Assembly (NCBI GenBank): GCA_001600635.1
Contig: BCKL01000015.1
Coordinates: forward strand, 342,942 to 406,941
Origin: Leucosporidium creatinivorum
Taxonomy: Eukaryota > Basidiomycota > Microbotryomycetes > Leucosporidiales > Leucosporidiaceae
Length of the DNA stretch: 64,000 bases
Reading direction: 5' to 3'
In this document: piece by piece, positions 26,990 through 57,960 of the stretch
How the letters are laid out: each line of letters opens with the position of its first letter
How positions within the stretch are numbered: the first letter of the stretch is position 1
Made by a program: the position numbers and the translations under genes
The notes under the pieces: model-generated
The model's database searches: none
The model's input: only the letters and a program-made list of their open reading frames with translations
Told to the model about the DNA's origin: nothing

Positions 26990-27838
26990 CGAGTAGAGCA
27001 TCGAGGTGCAATAGAGAGCAGTGAGCTGAACCTGGAGGGGTGAACGCCGAGCGAGAGAAGGCTGTAGCCGACGCTGTACGGCGGCAGAGCCTGTGCGAGA
27101 TATCGGATCAGACTTGCCTGTTGCACCCTTCTACTCTTCTCTAGCTCGTGCTCGCTCCCGCTGTGCACACCAAGTCGAGCTCGACCTCTCGCCGACTCCC
27201 GACTCCCGAGCACGGCACCTCTCTTGCTCTCTCCACTCGCTTCGTTCTCCGCCTCTGCGTGTCTCTTCTCTTCGCTCGTTGACCCGTGCAGCTACACATA
27301 CGTTGAGCGCCGCTCTCTACACTCCTCCATCGACTGCTCGCCTTCCTGCACCTCATCGACCTCGCTTCTCGCTTCCAATTCTCGCCTCCCTCCCGCCTTT
27401 CTTCTCTCCTCGCTCTCCTCGCTTACCTCTCAGCAAGGCTCTCTGTCGGAGGACGGATAATCTGGTGCACGGCCGCCAGTGGGGCGAGGGAGTGTAGTAC
27501 AGGTCAGTCTCGTGCGAAGCGGCAGGAGGAGTCGTCGAGGAAGGGCGAGGGAGATGAGGGCTGTTTGGTGAGTCGCTATGACGCGAGCGCTGAGCTGGGC
27601 TGGTCTGGTGCAGAGTCAGAGCTAAGCGAGCAAGTATGAGTTAGCTGGGAGGCAAGCTAAGCTGTAGCTGACCAGGGGCAGCCGAGCGCCGAGCCGAGCG
27701 GGGAGGGGAGTCGCTGGAAGGTGCTGCTTCCCTCTCCTCTGTGACGGTAGTACTCGGTGCTCTTTTGCAAAGAGAGGTAGGGCGACTTGCGCTCACACGA
27801 AGGTGCACGGCAGCACACTGCCAACCAGCCGAGCCTCA

Positions 27839-29140
27839 CGCCGAGGTGGGCGAGCGGTAGCCGAGGTCGCTGCTGCTCTCCGCTTCTGTCGCGCGCCTGA
27901 TGTCCGCTCCTGGCCCGCTAAGCTGCTCACCCGGGACTTCATCTAAGACGAGTGTGCACAGCAGGAGGAAGACATCCAGCTCAGAGCTCAGCGAGCCTCG
28001 CCATTCGCCGAAGGCTGAAGTGGGGAGCAGCTGAGCTGCTGTCTGCTTCGCTTCTGCGGCTTGGCAGTGGAGCGTACAGCTGTAGACTAGATTCATTCTT
28101 CTGCTCTGCTCCGACGCTGAAGATAAGTGAGGAGCAGGAGCAGCAAGCGAGCGTTCGGCGCCGAGTCGAGGCAGGGAGGAGCGGCTCGGCGAGCTGCTTC
28201 TGCTTCGCTGTTTCTCTTGTTGCGCTTGTTGCTACCGTCTACTCCCAGCGCGTCTTGCGTCGCACGGGGGAGCTGAACACAGCTACCAGAAAGACAGGGA
28301 AAAGCCGGCGAGCAGACGTCCGAGCAGGCGCCGGCGGCCGAGCAGAAGCGGCAAGTGGAGCGGCTGTGAAGGCCGTTCCCTTGCTTTTGGCTTCGTCGGT
28401 GTGATTCCGCCCCTTATATCTCCGGGAACTCTGATGTGAAGATCGTGACTCTGAGCAGAACGCAAAGCTTCCAGCCGAGCGACTCCAGCCTGCGCCGAGG
28501 TGGACGGCGGGAGTAGCTGAGCTGCTCTCGCGTTTGCTTCTGGTGAGCAAGAGTGCTACCTCGACCCGAAAAGTGATATTAAGAGACCGTGCTGGGTTGG
28601 CTCGTTGTAGCCAATACTGGAGGAGAAGGAGGAGCCGCCGAGCAGAGACGGATTGGCCAGCTTCTGGAGGCGGCTTGTCGCTTCGCTATTTCTTCTGCGT
28701 CTTTATGCCCTCTCATCATGTCATGCTAGCCTCCAGTTGGACGTGGGAAGGAAGAAGAGCTCGCAGCTAGCAGTCGGAGCGTTGACGCCGAACAGATTCT
28801 CAGAGGTGGAGGGAGGCAGACGTCGTGTGCCGCCTTTCGCTTCTGTCGCCCGGCTCATCGTCGTCCGGACTGCTCGGTATACCGCAGTAGGATGTGGGAG
28901 GAGTGGGAAGGCTACCAGAAGCAGCAGCAGCAGCAGCAGCATCAGACCAGGTGCGCCAGTCGGCCTGAGGCGGGCGAAGGACAGCCGAGGGCTGCTCTGC
29001 GCCTGGCTCTCATCGCCGTCTACTTGGTTTTGGAACTCACTGCACATTTATTTGTGGGAGGATCATGGGCCAGCTGAGGGCAGTGAGATCAGCTATCACT
29101 GGCTGGAGGCCGCCGAGGGACTAGAGCTGGGCCGAGGTGG
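27839..29140 (-). repeat. Dispersed CCACCTCGGCG word in arm A
   Basis: CGCCGAGGTGG occurs at 27839-27849 and 28493-28503 and as GCCGAGGTGG at 29131-29140, with looser copies between. Each lies beside a GTAGCTGAGCTGCT/GCTTCTG-like context of about 50 bp. The same word, inverted, recurs in arm B at 56634, 57114, 57285 and 57893. This looks like an older short repeat array within the arms. Confidence 0.5.
28921..28941 (+). repeat. CAG-trinucleotide microsatellite
   Basis: Six to seven CAG units in noncoding sequence of outer arm A. Confidence 0.85.
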
Positions 29141-30645
29141 TTGGAAGCAGCTCGAGGGCTGTTGCTGCCGCTTCTACTTGGTCCATCCTTGCCACTGCTT
29201 CCGTTTTGTGCTCTGACTCATCCATCGGAACCTCAGGTGAAGCGACAGGAACCAGCAGCTGGCCAGGCAGCCCTCGCCGAGATCAGGGTCGGTGCGCTCG
29301 GAGCGTTCTTGCCTCGTCCTCGCACTTGCCTAATACGCCAGCAGCTAGCAGACATCCGTCCGGATTGAGATCCTGGTAGAATGTGGCTCGAGCAGAACTC
29401 CTGAGTCGCTGGCCAAGTGAAGCAGCGCCGAGCCCTTCGCCGAGGTTGCTCGCTCTCGTTTCTCCTGCTCTTGCCGGTCTGCAGAGGCAAGCTGGAAGAG
29501 TGGCGATACGAGAGTGTAGAAGTGCTTCGGACACCGCTCAGCCTGGGTCCAGCTTTCGCTGTTGTGAGCTCCCTCCCGCAGTCTCGAGCCGCCCTCCGCC
29601 GGTCAAGATCTCACCCATTCGCTCGTTGGCGGCGATGGCTGCTGGTGGGCCGATGGCTAGTTGAACTCTTAGAAACAGAGAGTGTGCAGACCGAATATGT
29701 TCTCTAGCAAGTTGTTGGACGCCGCTGGCTCATATCTCGGCGATCACCTTCGCCCGACTCTCGCTGCTCTGCGCCAGCAGGGCGGCGGGGCGGGCTGAGA
29801 GGTCTGAGCAACGAGGATAAAAGAGTATTTGGACTTGTACGACCTCCTGGGAGTGTGCACACTCGCGTCTGGTAGCGGCTGCCGCCCCCCGGCGATGCGT
29901 GCTCTCGGGGTTCCCTCGTCTTGACGGCTCGCAGAAGCAGGCTGAGAGCTTGGGATGCCATTGAAAGAAGAGATAGCTGGGTGTAATCATCAATGCCGCC
30001 TGCAGCTCAGCAGCATCTGGTCAAGTTGCATTATGAAGGAGGAGAAGTATCCTTTCGGCCCCGGCTGGCGCACTCCTCTTGCTGGCCTCGTTCAAGCCGA
30101 CGGGGTGAGCGCTGACGCTGTGGGACCCCAAGGAGCACTGCACGCTACATTGCAAGCTATGTGCAGGTCTGCGAAGGGCTCGGCACGTCGCTTTCGGCGA
30201 TCCTCAGCTCGGCTTGGCTCGGCTCGTTTGCAAGGCAGGCGGACGGTCTTAGCTATTAAACAAGTCAGGCTTCACCAGAGAGGGTGTACCAGCACGTAGT
30301 CTCGCGCACCCTGTGGAACCGCTAGACACCCTCACTGCCTTTCACTTCCCTCCGCAAGCTGAGTCTGACCCTCCTAGACCTCCTTGGAGCTGCCTTGCGA
30401 GAGCAGCGTACAGCTGGGGGACTTGCGAAGCAGATATAGGGGAGGCTGGAAAGGGCAGGGTGGCACCATCATAGTCTTTGCAGTAGTAGCTTGCCTTGCA
30501 AGACGAGAGCAGTCTCCGCCAGCCGTGCTCAATCCTTCGCCCGGTCCGCCGCGAAGGGAGCAAGCCGACGCCTCACTCTTCGCTCTATGCTCTACGGCTC
30601 AAGGTAAGCAGCAAAAGGGGACGACAGCAGCAAAAAAAAAATCGA

Positions 30646-30844
30646 AAGAGAAGCCCTGACATCGCACGCCAGGAGTGGAAGAGCGCGGACATCGCGACCG
30701 AGCAGGAGAGCAAGCTCGAGAACCGCAAGGTCAGGCAGGGTAAAGATAAGATTTGATTTGTGACCCACAATGTGGGTCTACCAGTAATCAAAACTGATAA
30801 GAACAGATACTACACTTGATCTAAGCCAAAAGGCCAGAAAGGAT
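30646..30844 (-). ncRNA. U2 spliceosomal snRNA, copy A
   Basis: Read on the minus strand from about 30844: GGCCTTTTGGCTTAGATC, then AAGTGTAGTATCTGTTCTT. The second contains GUAGUA, the branch-site recognition sequence, embedded in the near-invariant U2 5' domain. Stem IIa (ATCAGTTTTGATTACTGGT) and a stem-loop GACCCACATTGTGGGTC follow. The 199 bp are identical to copy B (54520-54718), after which the copies diverge, which sets the 3' limit approximately. The RNA pairs with intron branch sites in the spliceosome. The Sm site is not obvious (TCTTATCTTTACC region). A T9 run follows in this copy only. Confidence 0.93.
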
Positions 30845-31145
30845 CGCAAAATGGTGGTCCAGGGGATTGGATACTCAACGCCGAAGGGGTGGGAGAGGCA
30901 AAGGCGTGGTATGTTTGTAGGGTCTTCGAGGTTGGGATTTAGATGTGGCAATGTGAGGGTACAGCTGGGTTGAATTGGCGTCTTATGTACCGACGAGGAA
31001 GATTGTGAAATGGTCAAGTCGAGGTGGACCCCCTCTCGGCGGACGTCTGACACCTCAGCAGCTAGCAAGGCGAGAGTGTCGAGGTGTGGGAGAGGGATCA
31101 GGTGGCGTCGGAGGTGTTGTGTGAAAGACCTGATAGACAACAGAC
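30845..31145 (-). promoter_or_regulatory. Conserved U2 upstream region, copy A
   Basis: About 300 bp directly upstream of U2 are roughly 90% identical by eye to the same region of copy B (54220-54519), while sequence beyond U2 is far less alike. This fits a selected or gene-converted promoter. Confidence 0.55.
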
Positions 31146-31375
31146 TGGCTCATCTTCGGAAGATGTCAAGACCGAGCCATGTACCCTCCTCAGCCACTTC
31201 GGCGATGCTCAGGCGGGTGTAGCTGCGCTCGCTGCAGGCTAGTTGGCGGTGGCACAGGCATTCCAGATTAATGCGATCCACCCCCCGCGTAACTACAGTA
31301 CCTCGGCCGACCAAAGGGACTCAAGCGAGGGCAGCGAGGTGGTCGCCGAGCAGGCGCTCATCTCCGAAGCCACAT

Positions 31376-32479
31376 CACGCTTGCAGAGTGGCTTGTATCG
31401 CACGAGAGAGGCTAACAAGAGCTTTGGAACATTCTCAGGAGTGCTTTCCAGCGTGCTTCAACCGCTTCTGCGCACCAGCGGCTCGTCCACAAAGCTGATT
31501 CGGCGCTCGGCGAAGGATCACTGCTCGTTCGAGAGCCGAGCGGGAGCCCTGAAAGTCCTGCCACACCGGGCAGCTGCTTTGCAGCTGCTTTGCCTATCCT
31601 GCACAGCCATTCCCAGGTGCTGTATCGCTACCTCCACGCTTTCGGCACTCTTTCTTCGCCACTCTGCGCGAAAGGAGGTCGTCCTCGGCTTTCATTTTGA
31701 GCGATCCGAGCAGCTGAGAGTAGTGTGCATCATTTCAGTCTGACTTCGGAGCAGCTGAGCGCATCGGCGAGAAGACCGACCACCGACGCGAGATTCAGCA
31801 GCGAGTGGCTCGAGTGGTACTTGAGCCGGCTCCTCTTGCTCTCGCCACATCTTACCTCGCTTGCCCGTTTCGTCCCGACCGCTCTTTCACACTTGCTGCT
31901 CACCTCGCAAGCTACACCAGGTAAGCCTACAACTACCGCTCCTCCCTGCCAGGCTGCACGCGCCCGAGTCTGTTGATTTTCGGGGCAGCTCAACGCTGGC
32001 CACAACAAAGAGCAATCGAGCTGACTGAGCTCTTCGTGTACAGGACTACCTCACTCACGAGGCTTCTTTCGACTTTCTTCCGGCCATCGCCCGTCGTCTT
32101 GTACGCTTCGCTCTTCGCTTGCTGCACCTCAAAGCCGAGCCGGCACACTCCCTCCCCCTCAGCTTCACCTAAAACTCAGCGTGAGTCTCGGATTAGGCGA
32201 TCCAGAGAGATACATGGTTGGAGACGCTGTATGAAGCTGCTGTTGGAGCTTCAAAGCTGTACTGGGACAAGCTCGCGATGGGCAGAACACGCGCGGCATG
32301 GAGGGATCGCGGACGTTCGGCTAGCTTCGCAGATGGAAGTGAAGGGAAGAGGGCAGGGCGTAGATGGGATGGATTTGCTGGGAAGGAGCGACCGATCAAA
32401 GCTACAGCGCCGAGATGCAGAGAGCTGACCTTCGGTTCCCTTTCTCCCCTCCCTCTCGTGCCCCTGCAGCTCTACCGCC
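31376..32479. other. Intergenic region before ERG3
   Basis: About 1.1 kb, pyrimidine-rich toward ERG3. Open frames of 60-170 codons exist but have no motif or splice support. It probably holds the ERG3 promoter and leader. Confidence 0.5.
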
Positions 32480-34085
32480 ATGGACATCGTTCTGGACTGT
32501 AGGTAGACGCGTCACTCGCTTCTCCAATTTGCTCTGCTGACCCGCTTGCTCCCCTACAGTCTTCGATGAGCACGTTGGCGACGCGCTCTACTCCAAGCTG
32601 CACAACCCCTTCGCGAAGCTCGCCTTATCAGCATCGCCAACAGAGTGGGCCAGCTACGCCGCTTCCAACCTCACCTCTTCACCATCATCACCTACATCAC
32701 TGAAGAGCGTCACGACCTTCCTCGCTGAGCTGCCAGGACTCGACACCCTTCCCCGAGACAACATCATCCGGCAGTCGCTTTCCCTCTATGTCATCACCTA
32801 CATCGGTGAGTCTGAGCACATCGGTCGAGCTTCTTGAACCATAGCTGACCTCTTTGCCTACAGGCATTCTGCTGCTGTACTTCGGCGTTGCTACGGGCGC
32901 CTACTTCTTCATTTTCGATCACCGAAGTGAGTCCATTATCACTCATCTACGCTCGCCCTTGGCTCACCTTCTTCTCACGCAGTGAAATTCCATCCTCGCT
33001 TCCTGAAGAACCAGGTCAGGAAGGAGATCATGTTCTCGCTCGACGCCTTCCCCCTCCTCGACCTCCTCACCCTCCCCTGGTTCGTCGGAGACGTTCGCGG
33101 TCACAGTATGCTCTACGACACTATCGCCGAGGGTCCTTTCGGCGCCTCATCCTCGGCATGGAAGCCTTGGGCTTACATGTTCTTCTCGGCGGCCCTCTTC
33201 CTCTGGTTCACCGACATGTGCATCTACTGGATCCATCGCTGGCTGCACCTTCCCGTCTTCTACAAGAAGCTGCACAAGCCTCATCACAAGTGGATCAGTG
33301 AGTTGACTGACCTTCGTCGGTGCCGACTACCGCTGACCCTCGCCCGCCCTCGCAGTCCCTACCCCCTTCGCTTCGCATGCCTTCCACCCAGTCGATGGCT
33401 ACCTGCAGTCGCTGCCCTACCACATGTCGTGCTACATCTTCCCTATCCACAAGTACATGTTCATTGGGCTCTTCTCCTTCGTCAACCTCTGGAGTATCTT
33501 CGTGAGTCCTCGCTCGGCCCCTTCCCCCGCCGCCGCCGATGCTGACCTCGGCCTGATGCAGATCCACGACTCGGACATGCTCTGCGGTCACCCTCTCGAG
33601 CACTACATCAACGGCCCTGCTCACCATGTGAGTTATCAGATCTCGGGCTCGTCTTTCCGGATTAGCCGACTGACCTCGTCCTCCCTTCGCAGACCCTGCA
33701 CCACGTAGGTTCCTCTCCCGACTCGATCTCGTGTAGCTCATAGCTGACTGTGCACCTTCCCTCCTACAGATCTTTTTCAACTGCAACTGTTCGTCTTTCT
33801 CGCTTTGCCTTCGCCTCTGACATCTCGCTGACCGCCCCTCCCTCCTCAGACGGCCAATACTTCACCTGGGCCGACAAAGTCGGTGGCTCCTTCCGCGTCC
33901 CCGCCAAGGGCGACGATCCCATGGACGCCGTCCTCGCCATCATCGAGGCCAAGAAGGCCAACGGCGGCAAGATTACCAAGGCCGAGGTGCTCAAGATTGT
34001 GGAGGAGGAGGGCGATCGCACGATGCTGATACCGTCGTCGGAGGAGGATTCGGATGGAGTGTCGGAGACGAAGAAGATGCAGTAG
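32480..34085 (+). CDS. ERG3: Sterol C-5 desaturase
   Basis: Introduces the C-5(6) double bond in late ergosterol synthesis in the ER. Nine exons: 32480-32498, 32560-32805, 32864-32926, 32983-33297, 33356-33501, 33562-33627, 33693-33704, 33770-33788 and 33850-34085; sum 1122 nt, 373 residues. Diagnostic segments: RDNIIRQSLSLYVITYIG, KFHPRFLKNQVRKEI, histidine boxes HRWLH and HKPHHKW, then PTPFASHAFHPVDGYLQSLP and HYINGPAHHTLHH, and YGQYFTWADKVGGSFR. These are ERG3, not ERG25, signatures. The third histidine box is assembled across a 12-nt exon (TLHH) and a 19-nt exon. The intron before the last exon uses a GTTCGT donor. The lysine-rich C-terminal tail (KKANGGKITKAEV) is cytosolic. ERG3 loss changes azole response in many fungi. 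Confidence 0.96.
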
Positions 34086-34637
34086 TTGGAGGAGGGAGGG
34101 CGCTGCCTCGTGTAGATGGCGCGCGGGCTAGAGACGGGGGAGCCACCTATCTATGGACTTTAATCTAACCCCTGGCGATTTCGATACCCAACAACGTCGT
34201 CGAGACTCTTAAGTGAGCTGCGAAGCGCGAGAGGAGTCGAGTCGAGTTGAAGGGTTGCTGTGAACTTGCAGGTTCGAGGTTTGAGACTTCATAGCGTGCT
34301 GTAGACGGCTATTATCCGCGCCCGACAAGCTACAGCCAGCTACAGCTGGGGTGCAGCCAAGCTCGCTCTTCGCAAGTGAGCTCTCCCCTTCGCCGAGCAG
34401 TCGCCGACTTGAGATCCAACGAAGGCAAGTCTAGACAATGAGGGCGACGGGGATGGGTGCTGCTAGGTATTGCTAATGTATGAAATGCCCCTCTTTCTTG
34501 CTGGTCTCCTACCACATACGATCAGTCGAGCCTGAGCCCATCCTCGGCGTTGGTACACGGCGAGAACAGCTCCGAGCAAGACTCGCCGTCTCGCGGAACG
34601 CTATACCGAGGTTTCCTTCACTTTGCACCCCTTCAGC
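34086..34637. other. Convergent intergenic region ERG3 / oxidoreductase
   Basis: Contains copy 1 of a roughly 140-bp direct repeat (34360-34500). Otherwise no gene. Confidence 0.6.
34360..34500. repeat. Direct repeat flanking the oxidoreductase gene, copy 1
   Basis: Matches 36324-36460 in the same orientation: AGCTCGCTCTTCGCAAG, TTCGCCGAGCAGTCGC, AAGTCTAGACAA and TGCTAGGTATTGCTAATGTA are shared in order with small indels. Confidence 0.85.
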
Positions 34638-36150
34638 TCAGCCTTGAGCCACCTCTACAGGCAAGCCCGTTTCCATACTCTCCCGAATCGCTTCCAACAT
34701 GATGATCGTCTTGAGCGCCTCCAACCCACTGCAGTTCGGCTCGGCTTCCCCCTCACAGACCTGAGCGAAATGGCGAAGCTGTAAGGTGAAAGGCGGGGTG
34801 GGGTCGACCGGTGCCGCCTCGTCGACTTGCAGCTCGTCGGTCCAGCTCTCCGAGGGCGAGTTGTAGTGCCACAGCTTGAGCTCGGGGAAGGACACGGAGC
34901 CGGTTGTGCCCATTATGGTGTACACGTTTTGGCTCTGCGCGGGGGTAGCAGCGTCAGCGCAGCAGGGAGGAGTGGATTGAGCGCCGAGCTCACCTTCTTC
35001 GGCATGAGAGGATTCTCGCCCGTCGCGCTCTCAAAGCTGTGAGGTGATGCAGAGGCGCTAATGGAGTAGTTAGGTCAGCTGTCGCAACAACGAGACCGCT
35101 TGAGCTCACTCGGAGAAGATGAACGTCCCGACGGCGCCGGAAGCGAACTTGAGAGTGCAGGCGCCCGTCTCCTCAACGGCGTGACCTCGAGTCGATACTC
35201 CTGGCTCGCAGTATACGCGAACGATGTCTCCAAAGAGGTAGCGCATGAGGTCAATATCGTGGACCTGGAAGAAGGGAGGAGGATCAGCGCCGAGAAGGCA
35301 ATGTAGAGTCGGCGCTGGCCGGGACGGCAACATACGAGGTTGATGAGCACCACACCACCCGTCTTCGGGACTTTGCGCCATTCAGTCGGAGCCTCAAAGT
35401 AAGTCGGTGGCTTGAGCGTCGTCCACTGGCCTTGAACGGCGAGAACTGAGCTCGGCGCAATCGCCGAGGTCAGCGCGATCCTCGTCGAGAGCTGGGAGGC
35501 AGAGCTCACCTCTACCGAGAGCACCAGAAGCGAGGATACGTCTTGTGTTGATGATGTAGGGGTTCTGAGAGAGGAGCAGAGTGGTCAGCGCGATCACCGA
35601 AAAGGAGCCGAAGTGAGCGCCGGGACCTACGAAACGGCGATGATGTCCAACCAGGAGCTTGGTCGAGTACTCTAAAGCAGCAGCGACGAGGGCTCTGTGC
35701 GAGTGCAGCTGGTGAGCCGCGGTTCTCGGCGACGAAGAGGGAGGACGAGCGAAGTTCACCTCCCCGAAGCAATGTCGGTGCTCATAGGCTTCTCTACCAG
35801 CGCCGAGACACCAGCTTCAGCGAGTTGAATCCCGATTGGCACATGCGAAGTGTTGGGAGTAGCGACGATGGCTCCAGCGACCTTAACCTCTCCAGCCTTG
35901 CGCGCGGCGAGCATGTCAACGACGCTGGTGTACAGCGGGACCTGTAGAGCAGTAGTCGATGAGTATCGAGCTGTTGACTCGCCTTCAAGCTCGCCCGGCT
36001 CACCTTGATCTTCTCGGAAAGCGCCAGACCAGCGGGTGTCGGATCGACAATGCAAGTGAGCTCGACTGTAGGCTCGTCGAGGCAGTGCTGGGTATGGCGT
36101 AGGCCGATGAGTCCTGGTGCGCCGATGACTGCGATGGGCGTGGGTGACAT
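34638..36150 (-). CDS. Gfo/Idh/MocA-family NAD(P)-dependent oxidoreductase
   Basis: About seven exons. The Rossmann N-terminus is PTPIAVIGAPGLIGLRHTQH (glycine-rich loop), followed by VAGAIVATPNTSHVPIGIQL and the family's EKPMSTD (EKP) motif. The C-terminal sheet domain includes VLINLVHDIDLMRYLFGDI, where His-Asp matches the usual active-site HxxD, and FASGAVGTFIFSDASASPHS. The protein ends GLPVEVAQG. Members oxidise sugars, inositol or related polyols; the substrate here is unknown. The gene is bracketed by two copies of a direct repeat (34360 and 36324), which hints that it was inserted or tandemly duplicated between ERG3 and the Hsp110 gene. It lies downstream of, and on the same strand as, the chaperone gene. 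Confidence 0.9.
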
Positions 36151-36477
36151 GAGATTCGAGAGCCGAAGTCGGGGTATGGGGAAGAAGGAGATGAGCGGAG
36201 GGGCGGCGAGGGGTGGGGGTTGCTATTGAACTTTCTGCCGAGGATCGACGCTGTGTAGTTCGCTGTGGCCGAGTATCAGCTACGTTCAGTAAGCTCCAGC
36301 GATCAACAGCTACTGTACAGTTGAGCTCGCTCTTCGCAAGCGGCTCTCCTCTTCGCCGAGCAGTCGCGCCGAGTTGAGCTCCAACGAAGGATTTTCAAGT
36401 CTAGACAAATGAGGGGCGATGCTAGGTATTGCTAATGTATAAAACTGCCCCTCTTCTTTTCTTCTTCACGCCAACAA
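36151..36477. other. Intergenic region oxidoreductase / Hsp110
   Basis: Contains copy 2 of the direct repeat (36324-36460), placed at the 3' end of the Hsp110 gene and upstream of the oxidoreductase. Confidence 0.6.
36324..36460. repeat. Direct repeat flanking the oxidoreductase gene, copy 2
   Basis: Same orientation as 34360-34500, spacing about 1.96 kb. It lies where the Hsp110 3' UTR should be. Confidence 0.85.
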
Positions 36478-47059: not shown

Positions 47060-49200
47060 ATGCTGTCGCTACCACGGTTCTACACTCGCCAGTCGCCACA
47101 ATTCCTCTGTCTGCTGGCGCTCAACCTGGGATTCCTCGTCTACACTCGAATGAGCCCAGCCGCCGGCGGCGCACACCTCGACACCTCCTCGCTCGTTCAA
47201 TCCCTCCCCGACCATCTGCCGAGCCTCTACCCTCACCAGCACTCGAGCACCAACAGTCACAACCACACCAGCGACTTCGCCTCCCGAGCTCACGCCAAGA
47301 AGAAGCGAGTCGCCCGAGCTTTCTCGTCCGGCGCTCCCCTCGTCCTTTCGCCGTCAAGACATGTCCCGACAGGCGCACATACTCTCTCCCATCCCACTGC
47401 CACCTGCGAGGTATGCGTAGCAACCCCCGACGATCCTCTGTGCGAGTATGGACTCGACAATGTTCGGCTCTCAAGGTCTTACGAAGGCAGCGGACACCGA
47501 GTTCGCAAGTTCTTGGAGAAGGCGTTGAGGGGAGACAAGGTTCGCATCGGGTGAGTTGCTACAGTCGCTCTGATTATCACCAACACCGGAGACGGTGCAC
47601 CTCGACATCAAGCTGACCTCTCGCTCGCCGCAGAATCATCGGCGGCTCGGTCACGGCAGGGCACGGCCTCGGCGGCAAGCCCAGTTGGCACCAACGCTTC
47701 TTCACCGAGTTCCAGCAAGCGTTCCCCAACTCGGAGATCTTTGACGGCTCGGTACCCGCCATGGGCAGTGGTGAGTTCGGAGCCTGTCCGAGCCACTCCC
47801 TCTGTCGCTGACCGAGTCCCTCGCCTCACAGCCTTCTTCTCCTACTGCTTTGAGTCGCTCATCCCGAACGATCTCGATCTCTACATCGCTGAGCTCGACA
47901 TCAACAACGAGGGTTCGTCCCGTTCTCTTTCACGCCAAAACGCCTCGAGCGCCGAGCTCACCCTCTCTTTCTGCAGCCCTCGACCGTACCTTCGGAGAGG
48001 ATGATGCGCTCTTCCGAGGACTACTAGGTCTGCCGCAAGAGCCTGCTGTCATTCGTTTGAGCGTTGTAGCGACGTCGTTCCCGGATCTCGCGCTCGGTGA
48101 GTTTGTTGAGCTCGACTCGTTCAAGCGAGTCCAGCTGACATCCTACCTTCGACTACAGGACACGTCTCGGATCTCATCATGTCGACCTACTTCGACACGC
48201 CCATCATCTCGTGAGTTTCAAGTTCGAGTCTGAGCAGAAGGTTCAGAGGTGGCTGGTCCTTCGGCGTTGCAGCGGGCTGACCTGTCTCGCCATCCTGCAG
48301 CATTCGCAACTTCCTTCTCCCTCACTTCATCGCCCATCCTGAGCTCTCAATTCCCTACTTCTCGAAGCTGGATGATGGTAGCCCCGACTACGTGAGTTCT
48401 CTCCCCTCTCGACCTCCGGAGCGACGCCGAAGCTGACCTTCGATCCCTCCGACAGCGTCACATCTCGCACCTCGGTCACAACGCTCTCGCCGACATGCTA
48501 ACGCTCTACATGCGCGAGCAAACCTGTGAGGCGAGGCGTCGCATGGAGCACCCGGTTCCGCCAGCCAAGTCTCACTGGCCCAAGAGCGACATCCTCGGCA
48601 TGGTCCCTCGTCTGTACAGTGCGTCTATCGCTCCTCATGCTCGCTCTACCATCGCCTGACCTCTCCTTTCATCCCGCAGTGTGGCAACCTTTCTCCACCA
48701 CCAAAGTCGCCCCTCCCGTTCGCCCCCACTGCGAGTTCATGGGCTCGGAGCGCCGTCCTCTTACACCCATCGCCGAGTCGACCTCTCCTTCCTGGAAGCG
48801 CATCGACTGGAACGGCAAGCACGCTCTCGTCTCCAACGAGGTCGGCGCTCGCGTCTCCTTCCCCTTCACCGGCACCAAGATCGGACTCTTCCTCCTTCAG
48901 ACGAACGGAAAGAAGAACACGGAGTTCCCTGGGAAGCTCGGCTGCTGGATGGACGACGAGACGGATGTGCCGAAGGTCCCGGTGGATGCTTGGTACGCCG
49001 ATGACGCCAACCGCGCGTACTGGCATATGGTCAAGGACGGAGTGCCCTTCGCCGAGCAGTGAGTTTGAGCGATGCGCTCGCCCGCGCGAGGAGTTTGGCT
49101 GACCCTTCTCTTCGCTTCTAGTGTTCTTCATTGCGAGATTCTGGAGGAGTCATCAACGAGTGGGCACGAGGTTCGCATTCTCGGCGTCGCCAGTCAGTGA
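47060..49200 (+). CDS. SGNH/GDSL-like protein with signal anchor, tandem copy 1
   Basis: Start MLSLPRFYTR at 47060, then a hydrophobic signal anchor (FLCLLALNLGFLVYTRM) and a Ser/His-rich luminal stem. The conserved core begins with CEVCVATPDDPLCEYGLDN and GSGHRVRKFLEKALRG, then IGIIGGSVTAGHG, a GDSL block I variant with candidate nucleophile Ser. FPNSEIFDGSVPAMGS, DLDLYIAELDINNE, PAVIRLSVVATSFPD and HISHLGHNALADMLTLYM (candidate catalytic Asp/His block) follow. The C-terminal half (SWKRIDWNGKHALVSNEVGA, FTGTKIGLF) forms a beta-rich domain ending LGVASQ. Likely a type II Golgi or secreted carbohydrate esterase/acyltransferase-like protein of fungi; activity is unproven. About ten exons. The intron 47771-47831 is absent from the next copy. 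Confidence 0.82.
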
Positions 49201-49821
49201 GCGGAGGTCCGACGCAAGGAGGGGAATCTGTCGTTTGCTTGGAGGTCGTCTGTACGCATTCCTGTTGCCACTGTTACGCAATCACTTTCCCGTTACACTC
49301 CCTCCGCTGCTGGCGAGGACTCGACGAGATCAGCGACTGCGAAGGCCATCGCCGAACGAGGTTCACGGATCGCGGCGTGTCGTGATAGAGATGAGCGGGG
49401 GATCCGAGACGGGGATGTAGGGCTGCAGAGTAGATGTGACCGCCCCAGCAGCTGTACGGCGTGATGATCTGCAGCTCGATAAGATCGACTCTTTGACGTT
49501 CGGCGAGGAGGCGGGGGAGGCTGGGTTCGTCGCCAGGAAAAGGAGGAGCGGGAAAAGTACAGTAGTCGGCGAAAGTCGTCGCTTGAGTACTCGGCTGCCG
49601 ACAATATTGCTTCAGGAGCTCGTCGACCTCGAAAGCGGAAGGTCCACGACGCTACTTGGGCAGCCGAGGCCGAGCCGAAATGAGGGGCCGAGCTCTAACT
49701 ACGTTTCCTCCCCTCGCCTGTCGAGGGCAAGAGGTCGCCATTTTGCGTGTTCCCAGTGATCTGCTTCTCTCCTCGTTTCTTCTCCTCACTTCGTACATCG
49801 CTACAGCTAGCGCCGGTCGCC
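49201..49821. promoter_or_regulatory. Spacer between SGNH-like copies
   Basis: About 620 bp; no gene. Holds the copy 1 terminator and copy 2 promoter. Confidence 0.4.
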
Positions 49822-52005
49822 ATGCTTCGTTCAGGATTGATGCTGCAGTCGCCGGCCTTCCTCCTCCTCCTCGGCGCCAACCTCTTGCTCCTCGCCTACC
49901 ACCAGCTGGACCCCACTCAGCCCCACCACCTCGATCCTGCAGCGCTCCTCGAGCACGTTGGGCTCGCTCGTCCTGCTTCGCTCCACCTGCATCGACAGCC
50001 CAGCAGCGCCGAACTCGACGAGATCGCCTCTCCCGCCGACCCCGTTCTCAGGAAGAACAACAAGCAGGCTCGCCCCTTCTCGTCGGGTCGGCATCAGAAC
50101 GCTCTTGGTTCAGTCACCTCCACCCAACGACATGCAGCAAGCGCTCTGAAGCAGCAGCAGGCGACTCAGACGTGCGAGGTCTGCGTGGCGAGCCCCGACG
50201 ATCCGCTCTGCGAGTATGGGCTGGACAACATCCGACTATCAAGGGCGTACCAGGGAAGCGGGCATCGTGTGAGGAAGATGCTGGAGAAGGCGTTGAGAGG
50301 GGAGAAGATTCGTGTGGGGTGAGTTGGCCTGCTCGGCGATCGTTCGTCGTCGGCGCCGAGCTGATACGTTCGCCTTCGCTTCACGCCTGCGCAGGATCAT
50401 CGGTGGATCGGTATCCACAGGTCATGGTCTCCAACCCGGCCAGGATACGTGGCATTCGCACTGGTTCAAGGCGTTTCAGAAGGAGTTCCCCAACTCGGAG
50501 CTGTTCAACGGCGCGCTACCAGCTTCAGGCTCCAACTTCTTCGGCTGGTGCTTCCCTGCACTCATCCCGGAAGATCTTGATCTCTATCTGATAGAAGTTG
50601 ACGTCAACAACGAGCGAGTTCGGGCGCTTTTGGATGTTCGGCGAGGACAGCGCTGACCTTCGCCTCGCAGGGGAGACGCCAAGAACGAGCTGGACGATGA
50701 TGCGCTTCATCGCGCGATTCTAAATTTGCCGCAAGAGCCTGCTCTCATTCGACTGACTGTCGTAGCGACCTCGTTCCCAGACCTGTCTCGAGGTGAGTTC
50801 TCCGAGCATCGGTCTTGCGAAGGAGAAGCGAGGCTGACCCTTCCTGTGTGCGCAGGATTCACCTCCAACCTCGCAATGTCCTCCTACTTCGACACGCCCA
50901 TCATCTCGTGCGTTTTGGCCTCTCGCTGGGCCTTCGAGGTCTTCGCCGAACTCCGAGTTGACCGCTGTTCACCTTCTCAGCGTCCGCAACTTCCTCCTAC
51001 CACATTTCATTGCTCATCCAGAAGTAGGAAAGGACTTCTTTGGCTACTTTCCCGACGGAAAGCTGGACTACGTGAGTTGTTTCGCTACCTCTCCTCGTTC
51101 GTCGCCGAAGCTGACTCGCTCCCTCGGTCTCTAGCGCCACATGGCTACGCTTGGACACTCGGCTCTCGGGGACATGCTTACGCTCTATCTCAAGGAGCAA
51201 ACCTGCGAGACCCGTCGTCGTCAAGCCCATGCCATCGCCCTGCCGACTTCGCGCTGGCCGCAAGTCGACATCTTGGGGATGGTCCCTCGACTCTACCGTA
51301 CGTGCTCGAGTGTTTGGAATCACTCTCATGTTCCTTCAGAGCTGACCCACCCTTGATCCTTCCCCTCACCACAGTCTGGGAGCCCTACTCGGCGAGCAAG
51401 GTTGCGCCGAGAGTGCACCCCGCCTGCGCCTTCACCGGCTCCGAACGAAGCCCTCTTACCCCTCTCGACACTCACACGTCCCCTTCTTGGACCCGAGTCG
51501 ACTGGAACGGCAAGGCGGCCTACCACTCCAACGAGGTCGGCTCGCGAGTCTCGTTCGCCTTCAACGGGAACAAGATCGGCATGTTCGTGTATCAGAGCTC
51601 GGGCGCTGGGCATGCGGAGAAGCCGGGGAGGATGGTGTGCTGGATTGACGAGCCGGTAGAGGGGCAGCAGACGTTTGTGGATGCTTGGTGGCCTCATTCT
51701 ATCGCTCAGCCGCTGTTTCATCTCGTCAAGGAGGGGATCGAGACTGGTCCTCAGTGAGTTCTGCCTCTCTCATGCGGGATTGTATACGGGTATGCTCGTC
51801 GTCGAGCGTACCTGCTAGCCAAGAGGAGTTCCTTCTAGGCTTGTCAGCCGAGGACTTCAGCGCCGCGCCCATCGCCGAAGTCTCCACTTCCTCGACGCTG
51901 ATCTCGTTCTCTCGCACTCTCCCCAGTATCCTCCACTGCGAGATCCTTGCAGATTCGTCAACGGATGGACATGAGATCCGTATCATTGGTGTAGCATCGC
52001 AGTAG
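49822..52005 (+). CDS. SGNH/GDSL-like protein with signal anchor, tandem copy 2
   Basis: Paralogue of the gene at 47060. Start MLRSGLMLQS, signal anchor SPAFLLLLGANLLLLAYHQL, then CEVCVASPDDPLCEYGLDN, IGIIGGSVSTGHG, PNSELFNGALPASGSNFFGW, DLYLIEVDVNNE, PALIRLTVVATSFPDLSR and RHMATLGHSALGDMLTLYL, and it ends RIIGVASQ. The shared order and a matching C-terminal domain (SWTRVDWNGKAAYHSNEVGS) show a tandem duplication. The acyl-hydrolase-like serine block is kept. One intron of copy 1 (at PAMGS|AFFSY) is missing here. The final intron is much longer than in copy 1 (about 51757 to 51925). Confidence in exon borders near 50610-50670 and at the end is lower. Confidence 0.82.
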
Positions 52006-52827
52006 CGGGCCCGGCGCGGTCCGAGTAGTCCCCTTCGTCCTCATTAGTGCTGTTTGTAATCACCAGGGGCTCATCTGTTGACTGTTGTAGAGTAGAGTAG
52101 CACAAGTGACTGAGAGCCAGCGTGAGGGCTTACAGCACTGTACCCTAGCTCGCCCCCGGCTCGGCGGCGAGGGACTCGGAGCTTTCCACCGAGCCAGCTC
52201 CAGCTGTGCATTGCAGCACGTAGCGCCGACGCCGAAGCATTGAAAGAAGCAGAGCAATTCCGGGAGCTCCTCAGCACCCTAGAAAACTAAGCCACCCGTC
52301 CTGAGCTGAGCGAGGAGAAAGGAGAACACGGCCGAGCTCGAGCTTCGGCGCTCGTAAGTCTGAGCAGGCAGGAGGTCATTGGGCGCGTATCGTTGCTCGA
52401 CGACGAGTAGCAAAAGAAGAGAAGCAGCCAGCCAAGCTGCAGCACTACCTGAGTCACCCTTCGGCACCGAGAAGTGCCAAAAAAAAAGTACGGGAGGGGA
52501 AGCGAAAGATTGATAAAGAGCGTTGCTGAGACGAATCTCTGGATACTATCAGTAAAAGGCGGATGGTATGGTCTTGAGACTCAACTCCGCTCGGTGATTT
52601 TGGAGGGCGGTTTCCAGAGTTGGACAATTTAGACAAGCTCTTTAGCCGGCGCAAGGGCGTGGTAGCTATAGAAAGCTTCTCAGGCAAGTCGAATATGTTG
52701 CAGTAGCGAGGCTCAGATGTAAGAGAATCGACAGAAAGTAAGATGCAGCTTGAGTTCACCTTCGACTCGACCGAAAGGAGCGACTCTCCGAGCTCGAGCC
52801 TCTGTCGCTTCTCTCGCTCCCCCCACA
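52006..52827. other. Intergenic region before DFR1
   Basis: About 820 bp without a recognised gene. A short segment near 52310-52460 resembles the AGAAGC/GCAGC...CTACCTGAGTCACCCTTCGGC style of the outer arms, but too weakly to call a copy. Confidence 0.4.
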
Positions 52828-53656
52828 ATGTCGCTTGAGACTGAGATGAAGCCGGTGGGTAGGAAGCCAAAAGCAGCACCAATCCATGCTAACATACTAC
52901 ACTACAGATCCCTCTCATCCTCATCGTTGCCGCCACGCCTTCCCATGCGATTGGACGCTCCTCCGCTCTTCCCTGGCGCCTGCCGAAGGAGATGGCCTAC
53001 TTTGCGCGCGTGACCAAGGGCGAGCAGCCAGAGCAGGATGGTCTCAACGCCGTGATCATGGGTAGGAAGAGCTGGGAGGGGATTCCGGCGCGTTGGAGGC
53101 CGCTGCAGGCAAGGATCAATGTTGTCGTCTCGAGGCAGGACACTTTCGGCTTGTGAGTAGAGCGGGACCCGTTGCAGCTGTGCAGCGGACTGTAGCGCCA
53201 GGGTGTAGCTGTATACCGAACCACACTGACGCGACTTGCTTCCGCAGAGGCGATGCACCCCATTCGCACCTCGCGTCGTCCCTTCCCTCCGCCGTCTCGC
53301 TTCTCTCCTCCATTCCCTCGACCACCAGCTCACCTACACCACCCAAGGTCAACCGCACCTTCCTCATCGGCGGCGCCCAACTTTACTCCCACGGCCTCAC
53401 AACACCTCATCCCTCCTACACTGCCGACCGAATCCTCCTCACACGCCTCAAGACCGACTTCCCGGACTGCGATGCGTTCCTACCGCCCATCCCTTCGGCT
53501 ACGGAGGGAGAGTGGAAGCAGGCTAGTCATAGGGAGCTTTGCGAGTGGGTTGGATGGGAGGTGCCCGAGGGAGATCAGACCGAGAAGGATAGGACGGGAG
53601 GTGAAGAGGTGGTGTACGAGTTCCAGATGTGGACCAGGGATTCGAGGGCACAGTAG
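52828..53656 (+). CDS. DFR1: Dihydrofolate reductase
   Basis: Reduces dihydrofolate to tetrahydrofolate with NADPH. Exons 52828-52854, 52908-53152 and 53248-53656 sum to 681 nt, 226 residues. Key motifs: LILIVAATPSHAIGRSSALP-WRLPKEM (substrate loop with catalytic acid), NAVIMGRKSWEGIP (NADPH binding), INVVVSRQ and the FLIGGAQLYSHGL glycine pair. ILLTRLKTDFPDCDAFLP and a C-terminal VVYEFQMWTRD strand complete the fold. Like other basidiomycete enzymes it carries insertions, here a Ser/Pro/Thr stretch before the IGGAQLY block. The bisected start (27-nt first exon MSLETEMKP) is well supported by splice signals. Confidence 0.94.
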
Positions 53657-53984
53657 AGGTGAGTTTCCGCGGCCACCAGAGTCATCTCGGCGATACACGT
53701 ATCTCGGCGCGGCTCGACTGACCCGACCTCGCCTCGCAGTCTTATGTCGCGATAGATTGACTCCGCACAGCCCACTGCACCCCTCATCTTCTCGGAACCT
53801 TTTCTCCTACTGGACTGGCACCGGCTGCGCTCCCCTAAGACCCCGTCGAGCGGCGCAGCGTTGACCTCGGCGAGGGCAGCTCATCGAGGTGCTCCGAGAA
53901 GGCGACCCTTGCACGGTCGAGAGTACACCATTCAGATCTTCAGTGTGAGATTGCTGCCTTCGTTTTGTCCTCTGAGCTGCTGAG
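53657..53984. other. Spacer between DFR1 and outer arm B
   Basis: About 330 bp without a gene. Confidence 0.4.
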
Positions 53985-54219
53985 GAGTGTGAAAGATCAC
54001 TCGGAGCAAAGCATCTGCTCGGCGACTACCTCGCTGCTCCGCCTGAGTCGCCTCGGTCGGCTGAAGTGCTGTAGTTACACGGCGGGAAGGTTTCATAAGT
54101 CTGGAATGCCTGTGGGACCGCCGACTAGCCTACAGCGAGCCCATCCTCACGCGCCAGAGCATCGCCGAAGTGGCTGAGAGGGTACATGGCTCGGTCTTGA
54201 CAGCTTCTGAAGATGAGCC

Positions 54220-54519
54220 AGTCTGTTGTTGATCAGGTCTTTCACACAACACCTTCAACGCCACCTGATCCCTCTCCCACACCTCGACACTCTCGCCTCG
54301 CTAGCTGCTGAGGTGTCAGACGTCCGCCGAGAGGGGTCCGACACGAGTTGGCCATTTGGCCATCTTCCTCGTCGATACTTGAAACGCCAATTCAACCTAG
54401 CTGTACCCTCACATCACCGCATCCAAATCCCAACCTCGAAGACCTACAAACATACCACGCCTTTGCCTCTCCCACCCCTTCGGCGTTGAGTACCCAATCC
54501 CCTGGACCACCATTTTGCG
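54220..54519 (+). promoter_or_regulatory. Conserved U2 upstream region, copy B
   Basis: Matches the copy A upstream region. CCACCATTTTGCG lies immediately before the RNA start; the shorter CATTTTGCG also occurs about 60 bp upstream of both U4 genes, a possible shared snRNA promoter word. Confidence 0.45.
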
Positions 54520-54718
54520 ATCCTTTCTGGCCTTTTGGCTTAGATCAAGTGTAGTATCTGTTCTTATCAGTTTTGATTACTGGTAGACCCACATTGTGGG
54601 TCACAAATCAAATCTTATCTTTACCCTGCCTGACCTTGCGGTTCTCGAGCTTGCTCTCCTGCTCGGTCGCGATGTCCGCGCTCTTCCACTCCTGGCGTGC
54701 GATGTCAGGGCTTCTCTT
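54520..54718 (+). ncRNA. U2 spliceosomal snRNA, copy B
   Basis: Same 199 bp as copy A: GGCCTTTTGGCTTAGATC, the GTAGTA branch-site recognition sequence, stem IIa and the following GACCCACATTGTGGGTC hairpin. The 3' domain (GAGCTTGCTCTCCTGCTC and following) is also identical. The body looks intact, so both copies may be expressed. Confidence 0.93.
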
Positions 54719-56633
54719 CTGATTCTTTTTGCTGTCCTTGTTGCTGTAGCTCAGCCTTCACAGTTGGCCGAGGCAGTAGAGTGAATCATGAGACGCCGGC
54801 TTGCTTCTCGGCGAGAGAAAGCCCAGGCGGCCGCCGTCTCGAAGAAGCACAAGCTGGGACTTGCGATATACTGTATGTGAAGCACTGTATATCTGAAGCT
54901 ACTCGTTCCAATTGTCGCCCGCTCGTCTGCTTTGCAGCCGAGCCAAGCCGAGCAGAGGATCGCCGAAAGCGACGTACCGAGCCCTTCGCTGACCTGCACA
55001 TAGCTTGCAATGTAGCGTAAAGTGCTCCTTGGGGTTCCACAGCGTCAGCGCTCGCCCCGTCGGCTTGAACGAGGCCAGCAAGAGGAGTGCGCGAGCCGGG
55101 ACCGAAAGGACACTTCTCCTGCTTCAGAATGCAACCTGACCAGGCGCTGTTGAGCTGCAGGCGGCAATTACACCGTGCGAGTCTCCTACTCAACGCCGTC
55201 CCAGGCTGCCAGCCTGCCTCTGCAAACCGGCAAGCCGAGGGATGCCTGAGCAGACATCGCCGAGGGAGCAGAAGCAGTCGCAAGCGGGGTCATGCAAGCT
55301 ACCATTAGCACATACATCTTAGCCGTTCCGTCTGCTCTACTCGCGTCGCCGAACCTTTGTAACCCGCCTTGCCGCCCTGCCACCGTAGAGCAGCGAAAAA
55401 CGGGCAACGGTGGCGGCCGAGAAGAGGGCCAGCAGTGTCAACCATCCTCTGAGAACGCTAGCCGGTACATGGAGTCTTCAGCACGTTTTAGATCTGCTAT
55501 CCACCAGCACGCCAGCAGCCATCGCCGCCAATGAGCGAATTGGCGAGATCTTGACCGGCAGAGGGCGACCCGAGACGCGGGGGAGAGAGCTCACAACAGC
55601 AAGAGATGAACCCAAGCTGAGCTGTGTGCGAGGCGAATTCACAAGTTCGCATCGCCACTCTTCCAGCTTGCCTTGCAGACCGGCAAGAGCAGGAGAAGCG
55701 AAAGCGGGCAACTCGGCGACGAGCTCGGCGCTGCTTCACTTGGCCTTGGCTAGCGAGTCAGGAGGTCTGCTTGAGCCACATTCTATCAGACCTCAAAAAA
55801 TCTGAGCGGGTATCTGCCAGCTGTTGGTGGATCGGGCAACTGCAGAGACGAGGCAAGAACGCTCCGAGCGCACCCACCCCATCCCAGCGAGGGCTGCCTC
55901 GCCAGCTACTGGTCCCTTCTGTGTCCTGCGAGGGTGGTAGATACGACTCGTACCGATCAAAATCTAGACAGGAGGTGATCAAACCCGTCAGAGGTGGCAG
56001 AAGCAGCCCCTTGGACAGCTTCCGACCGCCTCGGCTCAGATCTCGGCGCTCCCGAGCGAGAACTTGCTGGCCCCACTACCCTCGCACAGGTCCTGAGTCT
56101 TGCACGGATGCATGTACAGTGTCTGACAAGGGCGCCCGTCATGTAGAGACTGGGGCAGAGCAGTCCTCGGCTATCCCTTCGACCGCCTTAGGCCGACTGG
56201 CGCTGCTTGCCAGCTGCTGCTGCTGCTTCGGATCGCCGTCTGCTTCCTTAGGAGTGTTGCTAATGCTAGATAGTCAGATTGTGCTACAACCTGCGAGGCA
56301 GAAGCCAAGGCCGACACACAACGACGCCTCACTCCCATCTCTGCTCGGCGCGAGCGCTCCGACTGCCAGCGCCCAGCTCTCGTTCCTCCAGCACGTCCAG
56401 CAGCTCCGCGCAGCTAGAGGACATAGCTTTAAAACCGTGATCTGTATGCCAACCGACAAACAGCCTCCAGCTGCCTTGCGATCCGGTTCAGCTCGGCTCG
56501 ATGGGCTCCTCTTGCTTATCCTGCACAGACCAAGGCCTCCTCCCCAGCTCGAGTCTCAGCGCAGCAAAGCTGGCATCGAGTGCGGCGACCCAACCAGAAG
56601 CAAAAGTAAGAGCAGCTTAGCTACTCCCCCTTT

Positions 56634-57903
56634 CCACCTCGGCGCAGGCTCCCGTCGCTCGACACGGCTGCAAATCTGCTGCGACTCCTGGGAGAATCCG
56701 GCGCAGAGCAGACAGCTCCATTAACAACGCCGCCTCGCAGAGTAGAAGAAGTAGGAGAACAGCCTCCAGGCTGCTCCCCTTACCGCCTCTGCTCAGTCGG
56801 CTGCTCGGTCGCCTGCTGCTGCCAGCTGCCGCTTCGTGTCCTCGTCCATTTGTCTGACTTCACAATTCAGCAGTAGGACTGAATGGAGCGTATCAAGCCG
56901 GCATCTCCTTCAAAGCAAAGAGGCAGAGCAGGAACCGCCCCGCGAGCCGCTCCTCCCTACCTCACCTCGGCACCGAACGCTCGCTCGGTGCTCCTTCTCT
57001 TCACCATCTTCGGCAGCTCCGCATGGCACGAGGCAGCTCCTAGTGTGAAGCAGCGAGCTTGCAACTGGACCTCTATAGAAGCGAAGCAGAAAGCAGCTCG
57101 GCCGCGTCCACTTCCACCTCGGCGAGGTGGCGGGGCTCGCTGAGCTCTGCGCTCGTCAACTGCCCTCGTTGCCATGCGACTCGTGTGTTCAAAAAAGACA
57201 TTCAACAGAAGTTCCGCTGCCCAACATGCAACGCACAGCAACACGAAGAAGAGGAGAGCAGCAGCCAGCTCGGCTACCTCTCGTCCACCTCGGCGTGAGG
57301 GGTCGGCTGGTTTGCAGTGTGCTGCTCTGCACCTTCCAAGGCAACGGGGAGGGGCCAACGGCAGAGGCAAGGGCGAAACAGCCCCCCTTAGCTGCTCCCC
57401 TCCCCGCTCAAGATCGGCGCTCGGCTGTCCCTTGTCAGCTACAGCTCTGCTCTTGCCCTCAGCTACTCTGCACCAGCTCATCTCCCCTGAATCTCATTCC
57501 AGCTTGCCCAGCCCAGCTCCAGCCCTCGCATCATGGAGACTCACCGCACAAACCTCATCTCCCTCGCTCTCCTCCTTCCCTCGCGGCTGGCTGAGTGCGC
57601 TGTACCTCACTCCCCTCGCTTCCACTGACCGTGCACTAGACCCTCCAGTGGACAGAGTAGCTTGCTGAGACGTGAGAAGAGAGGCGCGAGAGGCGTGAGA
57701 GCTTGAGAGGAGAGAGAAAGGTGAGAGAGGTGATGAGGTGCAGATATGGCCGAGATGAGAGGGTACAGCGCTGTAGGAGAGTGCGAAGCTGTAGCCGAGT
57801 GAGATCCCTTTTTGATCGGGTTGAGAGAGATGAAGAGAGGGGACAAGGGGAGCAGGAGAGGGAGAGAGAGGGAGCGGGAGAGAGCAAGTCGACCACCTCG
57901 GCG
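56634..57903 (+). repeat. Dispersed CCACCTCGGCG word in arm B
   Basis: Occurs at 56634-56644, 57114-57124, 57285-57295 and 57893-57903, the inverse of the copies in arm A. Several sit in a context like AGAAGC...AGAGCAGC...CTCGGCTAC. Confidence 0.5.
57059..57298 (+). other. Small open frame with zinc-ribbon-like motif in arm B
   Basis: A 79-codon frame contains NCPRCHATRVFKKDIQQKF then RCPTCNAQQH, a C-x2-C-x15-C-x2-C pattern. The partner segment in arm A (around 27850-28000, minus strand) has about the same length, is also open and ends at the matching stop (GYRSPTSA against GYLSSTSA), but lacks the cysteines. It may be chance in GC-rich DNA. No start context or splice support. Confidence 0.2.
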
Positions 57904-57960
57904 AAGGGGAGCGGTCAAGTCGAGTCGGAAAATGACGCTGAGTATTTGCGACTGAGTCTG

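Follow-up and report, generated by a model that had tools for sequence, protein, structure and literature searches.

snRNA genes in nested inverted repeats

The stretch analyzed here, called the window in the following, comprises 64,000 nucleotides (nt) of the basidiomycete Leucosporidium creatinivorum. It corresponds to C15:342942-406941, with C15 standing for contig BCKL01000015.1, within a genome assembly of 27.7 Mb and 63 contigs. The window was scanned with the covariance models of 4227 Rfam families at the gathering threshold. Five matches above the cut-off were obtained, and all of them are genes for spliceosomal small nuclear RNAs (snRNAs), i.e., two for U2, two for U4 and one for U5:

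30651-30844, minus strand, U2 snRNA, left copy (U2B1), RF00004, 116.6 bits (cut-off 46)
54520-54713, plus strand, U2 snRNA, right copy (U2B2), RF00004, 116.6 bits
40760-40894, minus strand, U4 snRNA, left copy, RF00015, 70.2 bits (cut-off 46)
45444-45578, plus strand, U4 snRNA, right copy, RF00015, 70.2 bits
52475-52593, minus strand, U5 snRNA, single copy found, within the outer pair, RF00020, 46.4 bits (cut-off 40)

An initial annotation of the DNA had placed U2 and U4 genes at these four loci, all transcribed outward. Rfam agreed with the four assignments and shifted the gene ends by only a few bases, and the strands, minus on the left and plus on the right, agreed as well. The U5 gene, which also scores above its cut-off, had been overlooked.

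The U2 and the U4 genes are each carried by the arms of an inverted repeat, and the self-comparison of the window gave both inverted diagonals that had been proposed as a check:

39683-41191, no strand, inner arm, left, 1509 bp, 3955 bp between the arms, two copies in the genome
45147-46655, no strand, inner arm, right, 1509 bp, two copies in the genome (self-comparison)
27346-31367, no strand, outer arm, left (hairpin array and U2), blastn pieces at 67.5, 74.6 and 91.1%
54001-57743, no strand, outer arm, right (blastn pieces)
30634-30921, minus strand, near-identical U2 core, left, 99% over 288 bp (self-comparison)
54443-54730, plus strand, near-identical U2 core, right, 99% over 288 bp (self-comparison)

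The inner arms are 99.8% identical, with sharp ends and three internal differences. The outer arms are about 4 kb long and patchy, and their identity falls from 99% at U2 to 67% distally. The three aligned pieces are 30634-31367/54001-54730 (91.1% over 734 bp including U2), 28929-30224/54936-56227 (74.6%) and 27346-28204/56927-57743 (67.5%); the E-values of the inner pair and of these pieces were 0 or 6e-54. The two U2B cores are 23.5 kb apart. The description of the outer arms as snRNA arms was right insofar as they contain U2, but most of their length is taken up by a hairpin array of about 3 kb, apparently noncoding, which has relatives (arrays T and F, see below) outside the pair.

The two spacers between the arms (31400-39680 and 46660-54000) were without clear similarity (best tblastn E 0.019, best blastn E 0.015), in line with the earlier statement that the protein genes between the arms are not palindromic. 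Of the names given to these genes, frames for FA_hydroxylase (ERG3-like) and HSP70 passed the Pfam cut-off, but DHFR stayed below it, and the frames tried for an SGNH pair and an oxidoreductase matched no Pfam family. The inner and the outer arms have no noteworthy sequence in common. Concentric nesting had been proposed as a feature in its own right. The pairs are indeed nested, with midpoints 0.5 kb apart, but a significance of this geometry was not supported, because neither the two arm types nor the two spacers are related, and near-concentric midpoints have a chance of about 5% by our own arithmetic. The position of the U4 pair within the U2 pair is probably a coincidence.

Several other origins of the arms were considered and rejected. 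One palindrome across the whole 30 kb is at odds with the unrelated spacers. Regional centromeres of the S. pombe type have a gene-free core between inverted repeats, and the HSP70 and FA_hydroxylase frames between the outer arms argued against a centromere of this kind. A dispersed transposon was rejected because the outer arm has three copies at the DNA level, all within about 49 kb, and the inner arm has two. The word CGCCGAG, counted together with its complement, is found 160 times in the window (1-64000); it was rejected as the origin of the arms since the occurrences are spread over 60 of the 64 1-kb bins.

snRNA genes across the genome

The genome was searched for the snRNA families, and the counts are lower bounds, because scoring was limited to the best candidates and 5S rRNA was missed by the same search. 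U2 was found in four copies, all on C15, namely the pair of the window (U2B) and a second pair (U2A) at C15:277154 (+) and C15:280985 (-), which is convergent, lies around an assembly gap and scored 118.1 bits. For U4, only the two copies of the window pair were found, and for U5 a single copy, as neither family nor DNA searches of the genome gave a second. A divergent U1 pair is located at C17:49102 (-) and C17:51041 (+), and two U6 genes lie on different contigs (C16:398696 (-) and C2:408034 (+)). All four duplicated loci of Sm-class snRNAs that were found (U1, U2A, U2B, U4) are inverted pairs, with copies 1.8-23.7 kb apart, and seven of the 11 snRNA genes found sit within 121 kb of C15. The idea of a repeated inverted duplication of snRNA loci, raised in the initial annotation, gained support from the U1 and U2A pairs, which lie outside the window and are inverted too.

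Both U1 copies scored 30.3 bits, under the Rfam cut-off of 69.5, and sub-cut-off matches of this family were also seen in three of 14 control genomes. The copies have the 5' end AUACUUACCU, a fold with four stem-loops (z -3.46), the Sm-type site AAUAUUUGG and ACCAC at -69; this 5' end, four stem-loops and an Sm-type site are hallmarks of U1. The C17 pair is U1-like with high confidence, though not a member by the Rfam cut-off. It lies in a region of multi-copy sequence in both orientations (C17:36208-65252), between two mirrored copies; the other copies are without a U1 match. The genes around the U1 pair had been taken by eye for an F-box/LRR family; this was rejected, as none of four frames reached a Pfam cut-off. 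The two U6 genes share their central part and differ at their 3' ends, and one of them may contain an intron. Introns in snRNA genes of Rhodotorula have reportedly been the subject of older work.

As control families, U3, 5S and SRP (signal recognition particle) RNA gave no match in the genome search; since 5S must exist, its absence from the matches exposes the limits of this search. tRNA pairs were likewise considered as a control, and ARAGORN detected no tRNA gene in the sampled 245 kb.

Identity within the pairs and divergence of their flanks

Within each pair the RNAs are identical (0/177 differences for U1, 0/192 for U2A, 0/194 for U2B, 0/135 for U4), and the RNAs of U2A and U2B differ by two substitutions and two gaps. 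The spacer from -56 to -1 upstream of the RNA is also nearly identical within the pairs, with 1/56 differences for U1, 2/56 for U2A, 1/56 for U2B and 0/56 for U4. Between U2A and U2B the same spacer is unalignable (32 matches, 9 substitutions, 30 gaps). Its letters are thus unconstrained, and constraint fails to explain the identity within the pairs.

The flanks gave a different picture. For U1, 157 substitutions were counted at 1078 aligned sites (15%, gaps aside; Fisher p 0.004 versus the spacer), and for U2B 210 at 1222 (17%, gaps aside; p 0.0007). In both cases the divergence grows further out, for U2B up to a third, which indicates that the duplications of U1 and U2B are old. In a pairwise alignment of U2B in steps of 50 bases, identity was 0.96-1.00 from -100 to the RNA end, 0.78-0.98 between -500 and -100, 0.47-0.56 beyond -500, and 0.45-0.71 downstream of the RNA. 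Near-identity over kilobases was seen for the U4 arms (three differences in about 1.5 kb), and was not seen for the U2B and U1 arms outside the core.

A third copy of the outer arm, T, allowed site patterns to be compared with those of the left (L) and right (R) arms. In the distal part (27350-29260) the patterns LR, LT and RT were found at 211, 221 and 319 sites, and near U2 (29260-30230) at 211, 74 and 87 sites (chi-square 87.9). The best breakpoint was near 29980, and sharing mainly between R and T was confined to two of 15 blocks of 200 bases, at 27300 and 28300. This mosaic is compatible with conversion between the arms.

Local duplications as background

Self-comparison was extended to 205 kb of C15 and 40 kb of C17, which were chosen around snRNA genes and are not a random sample. 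On C15, 30 self-matches were found (17 direct, 13 inverted), and on C17 11 (three direct, eight inverted); both counts include the snRNA copies and may hold several matches per duplication. Self-matches of at least 95% identity and at least 100 bp were confined to snRNA copies. Between the two U2 pairs, two further inverted repeats are nested in each other, i.e., C15:308047-311988/321161-325089 (3.9 kb) and C15:287494-289620/329091-331242 (2.2 kb). They carry open frames, and the genome searches placed no snRNA gene in them. Local inverted duplication, even nested, is thus ordinary in this region, and the high identity is the distinguishing mark of the snRNA pairs. Direct duplications were also noted in the window, namely a tandem duplication with 65-bp spacing at 41518-41630 (48 bp at 98%), which lies near the left U4 arm, and two tandem duplications of about 66-79% identity at 4183-9388 and 47402-51579.

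A candidate promoter element

All seven independent snRNA loci (U1, U2A, U2B, U4, U5 and both U6; one copy was counted per pair, and the right copy was taken for U4) have the sequence ACCAC between -65 and -76, and in six of the seven it has the form TACCAC. As a control, sets of seven 150-mers were drawn at random from C15, and in none of 1000 such sets did five of the seven share a 6-mer within 16 bases. One U2A copy has GCCACGC instead, because the arm boundary cuts through the element. In the window the element is found at five positions:

30906-30911, minus strand, TACCAC candidate promoter element of U2B1 (motif test)
54453-54458, plus strand, TACCAC candidate promoter element of U2B2 (motif test)
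40956-40961, minus strand, TACCAC candidate promoter element of the left U4 (sequence)
45377-45382, plus strand, TACCAC candidate promoter element of the right U4 (motif test)
52659-52664, minus strand, TACCAC candidate promoter element of U5 (motif test)

snRNA genes are divided between RNA polymerase II (Pol II) and Pol III, and ACCAC is a candidate for a proximal element common to the genes of both polymerases. No report on promoter elements of fungal snRNA genes was recognized in the literature searched. Past the 3' ends of the Sm-class RNAs, a run of T with GCTG or a similar sequence behind it appears to recur.

Hairpin arrays of the outer arms

Most of each outer arm is occupied by an array of predicted hairpins, and four related arrays (L, R, F and T) lie within about 49 kb:

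27640-30140, plus strand, hairpin array L, 16 predicted conserved hairpins, 130-196 nt apart (model matches)
54936-57430, minus strand, hairpin array R, copy of L, predicted hairpins (model matches)
63767-64000, minus strand, end of array F, fourth and diverged (C15:408056-406708, running on beyond the window edge), about 55% identity to R, L and T
C15:416329-418880, array T, third copy of the outer arm, without U2 (DNA-level match)

The outer arms consist of conserved islands with diverged spacers between them, and in many islands the strand directed towards U2 folds as a hairpin. The longest open frame of L has 201 codons and that of T 220; in R it has 367 and is antisense to the array. None of the three reached a Pfam cut-off, and the outer arms seem to be noncoding. 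From the alignment of the three copies, RNAalifold predicted 16 non-overlapping hairpins; of their 381 pairs, 32 are changed on both sides, and 93 cells are broken. The opposite strand gave 10 hairpins, in which 10 of 204 pairs are changed on both sides and 51 cells are broken. For a set of 24 hairpins (8 of 16 from each of L, R and T) the covariation score was 0.476, versus 0.304 +- 0.028 for shuffles (0/500) and 0.14-0.20 for slid structures; two of five measures failed to beat the shuffles (58/500 and 81/500), and the structure had itself come from these rows. In these hairpins 53 of 234 pair cells were G-U and four were A-C. The excess points to RNA rather than DNA structure, though RNAalifold favours G-U.

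A model built from the 24 hairpins was run on 264 kb and matched 87 times up to E 5. The 28 matches below E 0.001 were the 24 themselves, one more in L and three in F. Together with three weaker matches (E 0.008-0.05), array F thus has six hairpins with a spacing of 148-157 nt beyond the window edge; its part within the window has a single weak match (8.1 bits). The best match outside the arrays was a single one at C17:46412 (E 0.0012), 2.7 kb from the U1 pair. Segments of 60 nt with a minimum free energy below -26 made up 8-18% of the four arrays and 0.2-2.7% of 20 control stretches. When 556 bins were scanned, L, F and one intron-like stretch contained the five richest, and R and T had at most three per bin. 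The mean folding energy of 70-nt segments of the arms, which was not below that of shuffles, speaks against the hairpin arrays.

An exact pattern designed on the arrays had 20 matches genome-wide. Nine of them fall in the four arrays, and the other 11 are at least 4.4 kb from one another. The reversed pattern, used as a control, had 45 matches, so that clustering alone is meaningful; an array with one pattern match may exist elsewhere. An array pair on contig C12, suggested by two pattern matches, was rejected, as 10 kb there gave no model match at E<=1. At E<=0.5, Rfam detected only U2 in 27000-32500 and only U2, U4 and U5 in 31000-64000, and nothing was found at E<=1 in the stretches searched for arrays T and F (L020 and L021). 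A U2 relic beside T or F was thus rejected at these thresholds.

A glutaredoxin gene probably has an intron of about 1.5 kb (C15:292800-291240, minus strand) that is also dense in hairpins and contains a tandem repeat of about 139 bp. One of the coding blocks flanking C15:292.8-291.2 kb reached the glutaredoxin Pfam cut-off, and the other matched below it. Hairpin-rich introns may be a wider feature.

It is conceivable, and in our view rather doubtful, that the outer arms harbour long noncoding RNA genes, each a series of tandem hairpins (about 16 per array in L, R and T, at least six in F), which would form a family not described before. Its four arrays would surround the U2-U4-U5 cluster within about 49 kb and, judged by a single exact pattern, would not be clustered elsewhere. 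One pair of arrays, duplicated together with U2, might serve the snRNA locus, e.g., through a nuclear body or hairpin-derived small RNAs. No use of terms for such hairpin arrays was found in the literature searched.

Origin and maintenance of the mirror pairs

We favor a joint reading with a probability of about 0.68, in which the pairs arose by local inverted duplications, the snRNA cores were homogenized by ectopic gene conversion, and the nesting is coincidental. The window contains both copies of U4 found and one of the two U2 pairs, and each of these loci would derive from a local inverted duplication. Ectopic conversion would keep the gene and its promoter, from ACCAC near -70 to just past the 3' end, nearly identical, and the flanks would drift. 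The mirror orientation would allow mutual correction without the deletion that results from crossing over between direct copies. Crossing over between inverted copies would invert the intervening DNA instead of deleting it, the pair would survive, and lasting pairs would tend to be inverted. All copies may be expressed and may provide extra dosage.

Several observations weigh against this proposal. Local duplications of both orientations are common, and four inverted pairs out of four have a probability of about 0.06 by our own arithmetic; moreover, the two nested inverted repeats of 87-88% on C15 are without snRNA genes. The U4 and U2A pairs are without a diverged homologous flank; with nothing diverged left beside their cores they may simply be young, and recent duplication explains both equally well. 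The copy numbers are only lower bounds, from a search that failed on 5S rRNA. The breakpoint near 29980 was reached in 0/500 permutations, but site permutation ignores the correlation of neighbouring sites and possible conserved blocks. In addition, a review on fission yeast (PMC7016768) describes that direct repeats undergo deletion and conversion, and that inverted repeats at stalled forks can lead to gene conversion and also to dicentric and acentric chromosomes. Inverted pairs would thus not be free of cost, and direct repeats convert as well. The chief risks for the whole reading are the assembly, above all at U2A, where a 3.5-kb gap and mirrored Ns are present, and the reliance on one genome, without relatives, from which conversion was deduced.

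If the pairs had arisen by recent, independent inverted duplications alone, their likeness would reflect youth and not conversion. The sharp ends of the U4 arms with three differences in about 1.5 kb and the U2A pair, which has no homology beyond its 297-bp core, would fit this. For U1 and U2B it is contradicted by flanks that are 15% and 17% different (up to a third further out for U2B) next to spacers with 1/56, and also by the mosaic site patterns in L, R and T, and as an explanation of all pairs it is unlikely. Purifying selection alone, acting on old duplicates in which gene and promoter cannot change, would account for the identical RNAs and for ACCAC near -70 in seven of seven independent loci; it is improbable, because the spacer from ACCAC to the RNA start is unrelated between the U2 pairs, yet 96-100% identical within the four pairs.

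An artefact, in which a short-read assembler duplicated or misoriented the arms, deserves attention mainly at U2A. This pair encloses a 3.5-kb N run (C15:277389-280941) and has single Ns at mirrored places, so that one consensus may have been laid down twice, and isolated Ns suggest that the assembly was made from short reads. For the window pairs at 27-58 kb an artefact is opposed by a sequence without any N and by different unique flanks at each arm; the outer arms and the U1 arms have diverged, and the pattern repeats on two contigs. We consider it quite improbable. A single large ancestral palindrome with U2 and U4, later eroded to its arms, was suggested by two inverted pairs with midpoints 0.5 kb apart. 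It is hardly credible in view of spacers without clear similarity at the DNA and the protein level, U4 and U2 arms likewise without clear similarity, an identity of 99.8% for the U4 arms versus 67-75% for most of the outer arms, and further array copies outside the pair.

Relation to known systems and significance

How multi-copy snRNA genes maintain their identity is an old question, which has mostly been examined in tandem arrays. The human Y-chromosome palindromes, e.g., P6, resemble the pairs described here in that inverted arms are kept similar by arm-to-arm gene conversion (PMC3723533). The pairs here differ in being on fungal contigs, in arms of 0.3-4 kb, in a high identity that, except for U4, is mostly limited to the snRNA gene and its promoter, and in a conversion deduced from one genome. 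Several snRNA genes in a short stretch and local duplication are also features of Arabidopsis, for which seven U1-U4 clusters, one U2-U5 cluster and tandem U2 and U5 genes are listed (PMC545797); there, different RNAs are joined or in tandem, whereas here the same RNA forms mirror pairs 1.8-23.7 kb apart. In Euglena gracilis, U3-U5 linkages are described (PMC2784804) as small nuclear and nucleolar RNA genes in opposite orientation that were multiplied by duplication, but they join different RNAs and are always convergent, in contrast to the inverted pairs of the same gene found here. Clusters of snRNA genes are known, and so are converting palindromes, but separately from each other. In the literature searched, which reached few subscription journals, no description of inverted pairs of the same snRNA as a genome-wide rule was found.

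The hairpin arrays provide a lead to an RNA family so far undescribed, and the ACCAC element, common to Pol II snRNA genes and U6, is an entry point to snRNA transcription in this fungus. The four small, separate mirror pairs in a compact genome are a test case for the idea that inverted pairs persist via conversion without deletion, an idea that could be tested on these four pairs with relatives, population sequences or reporter constructs.

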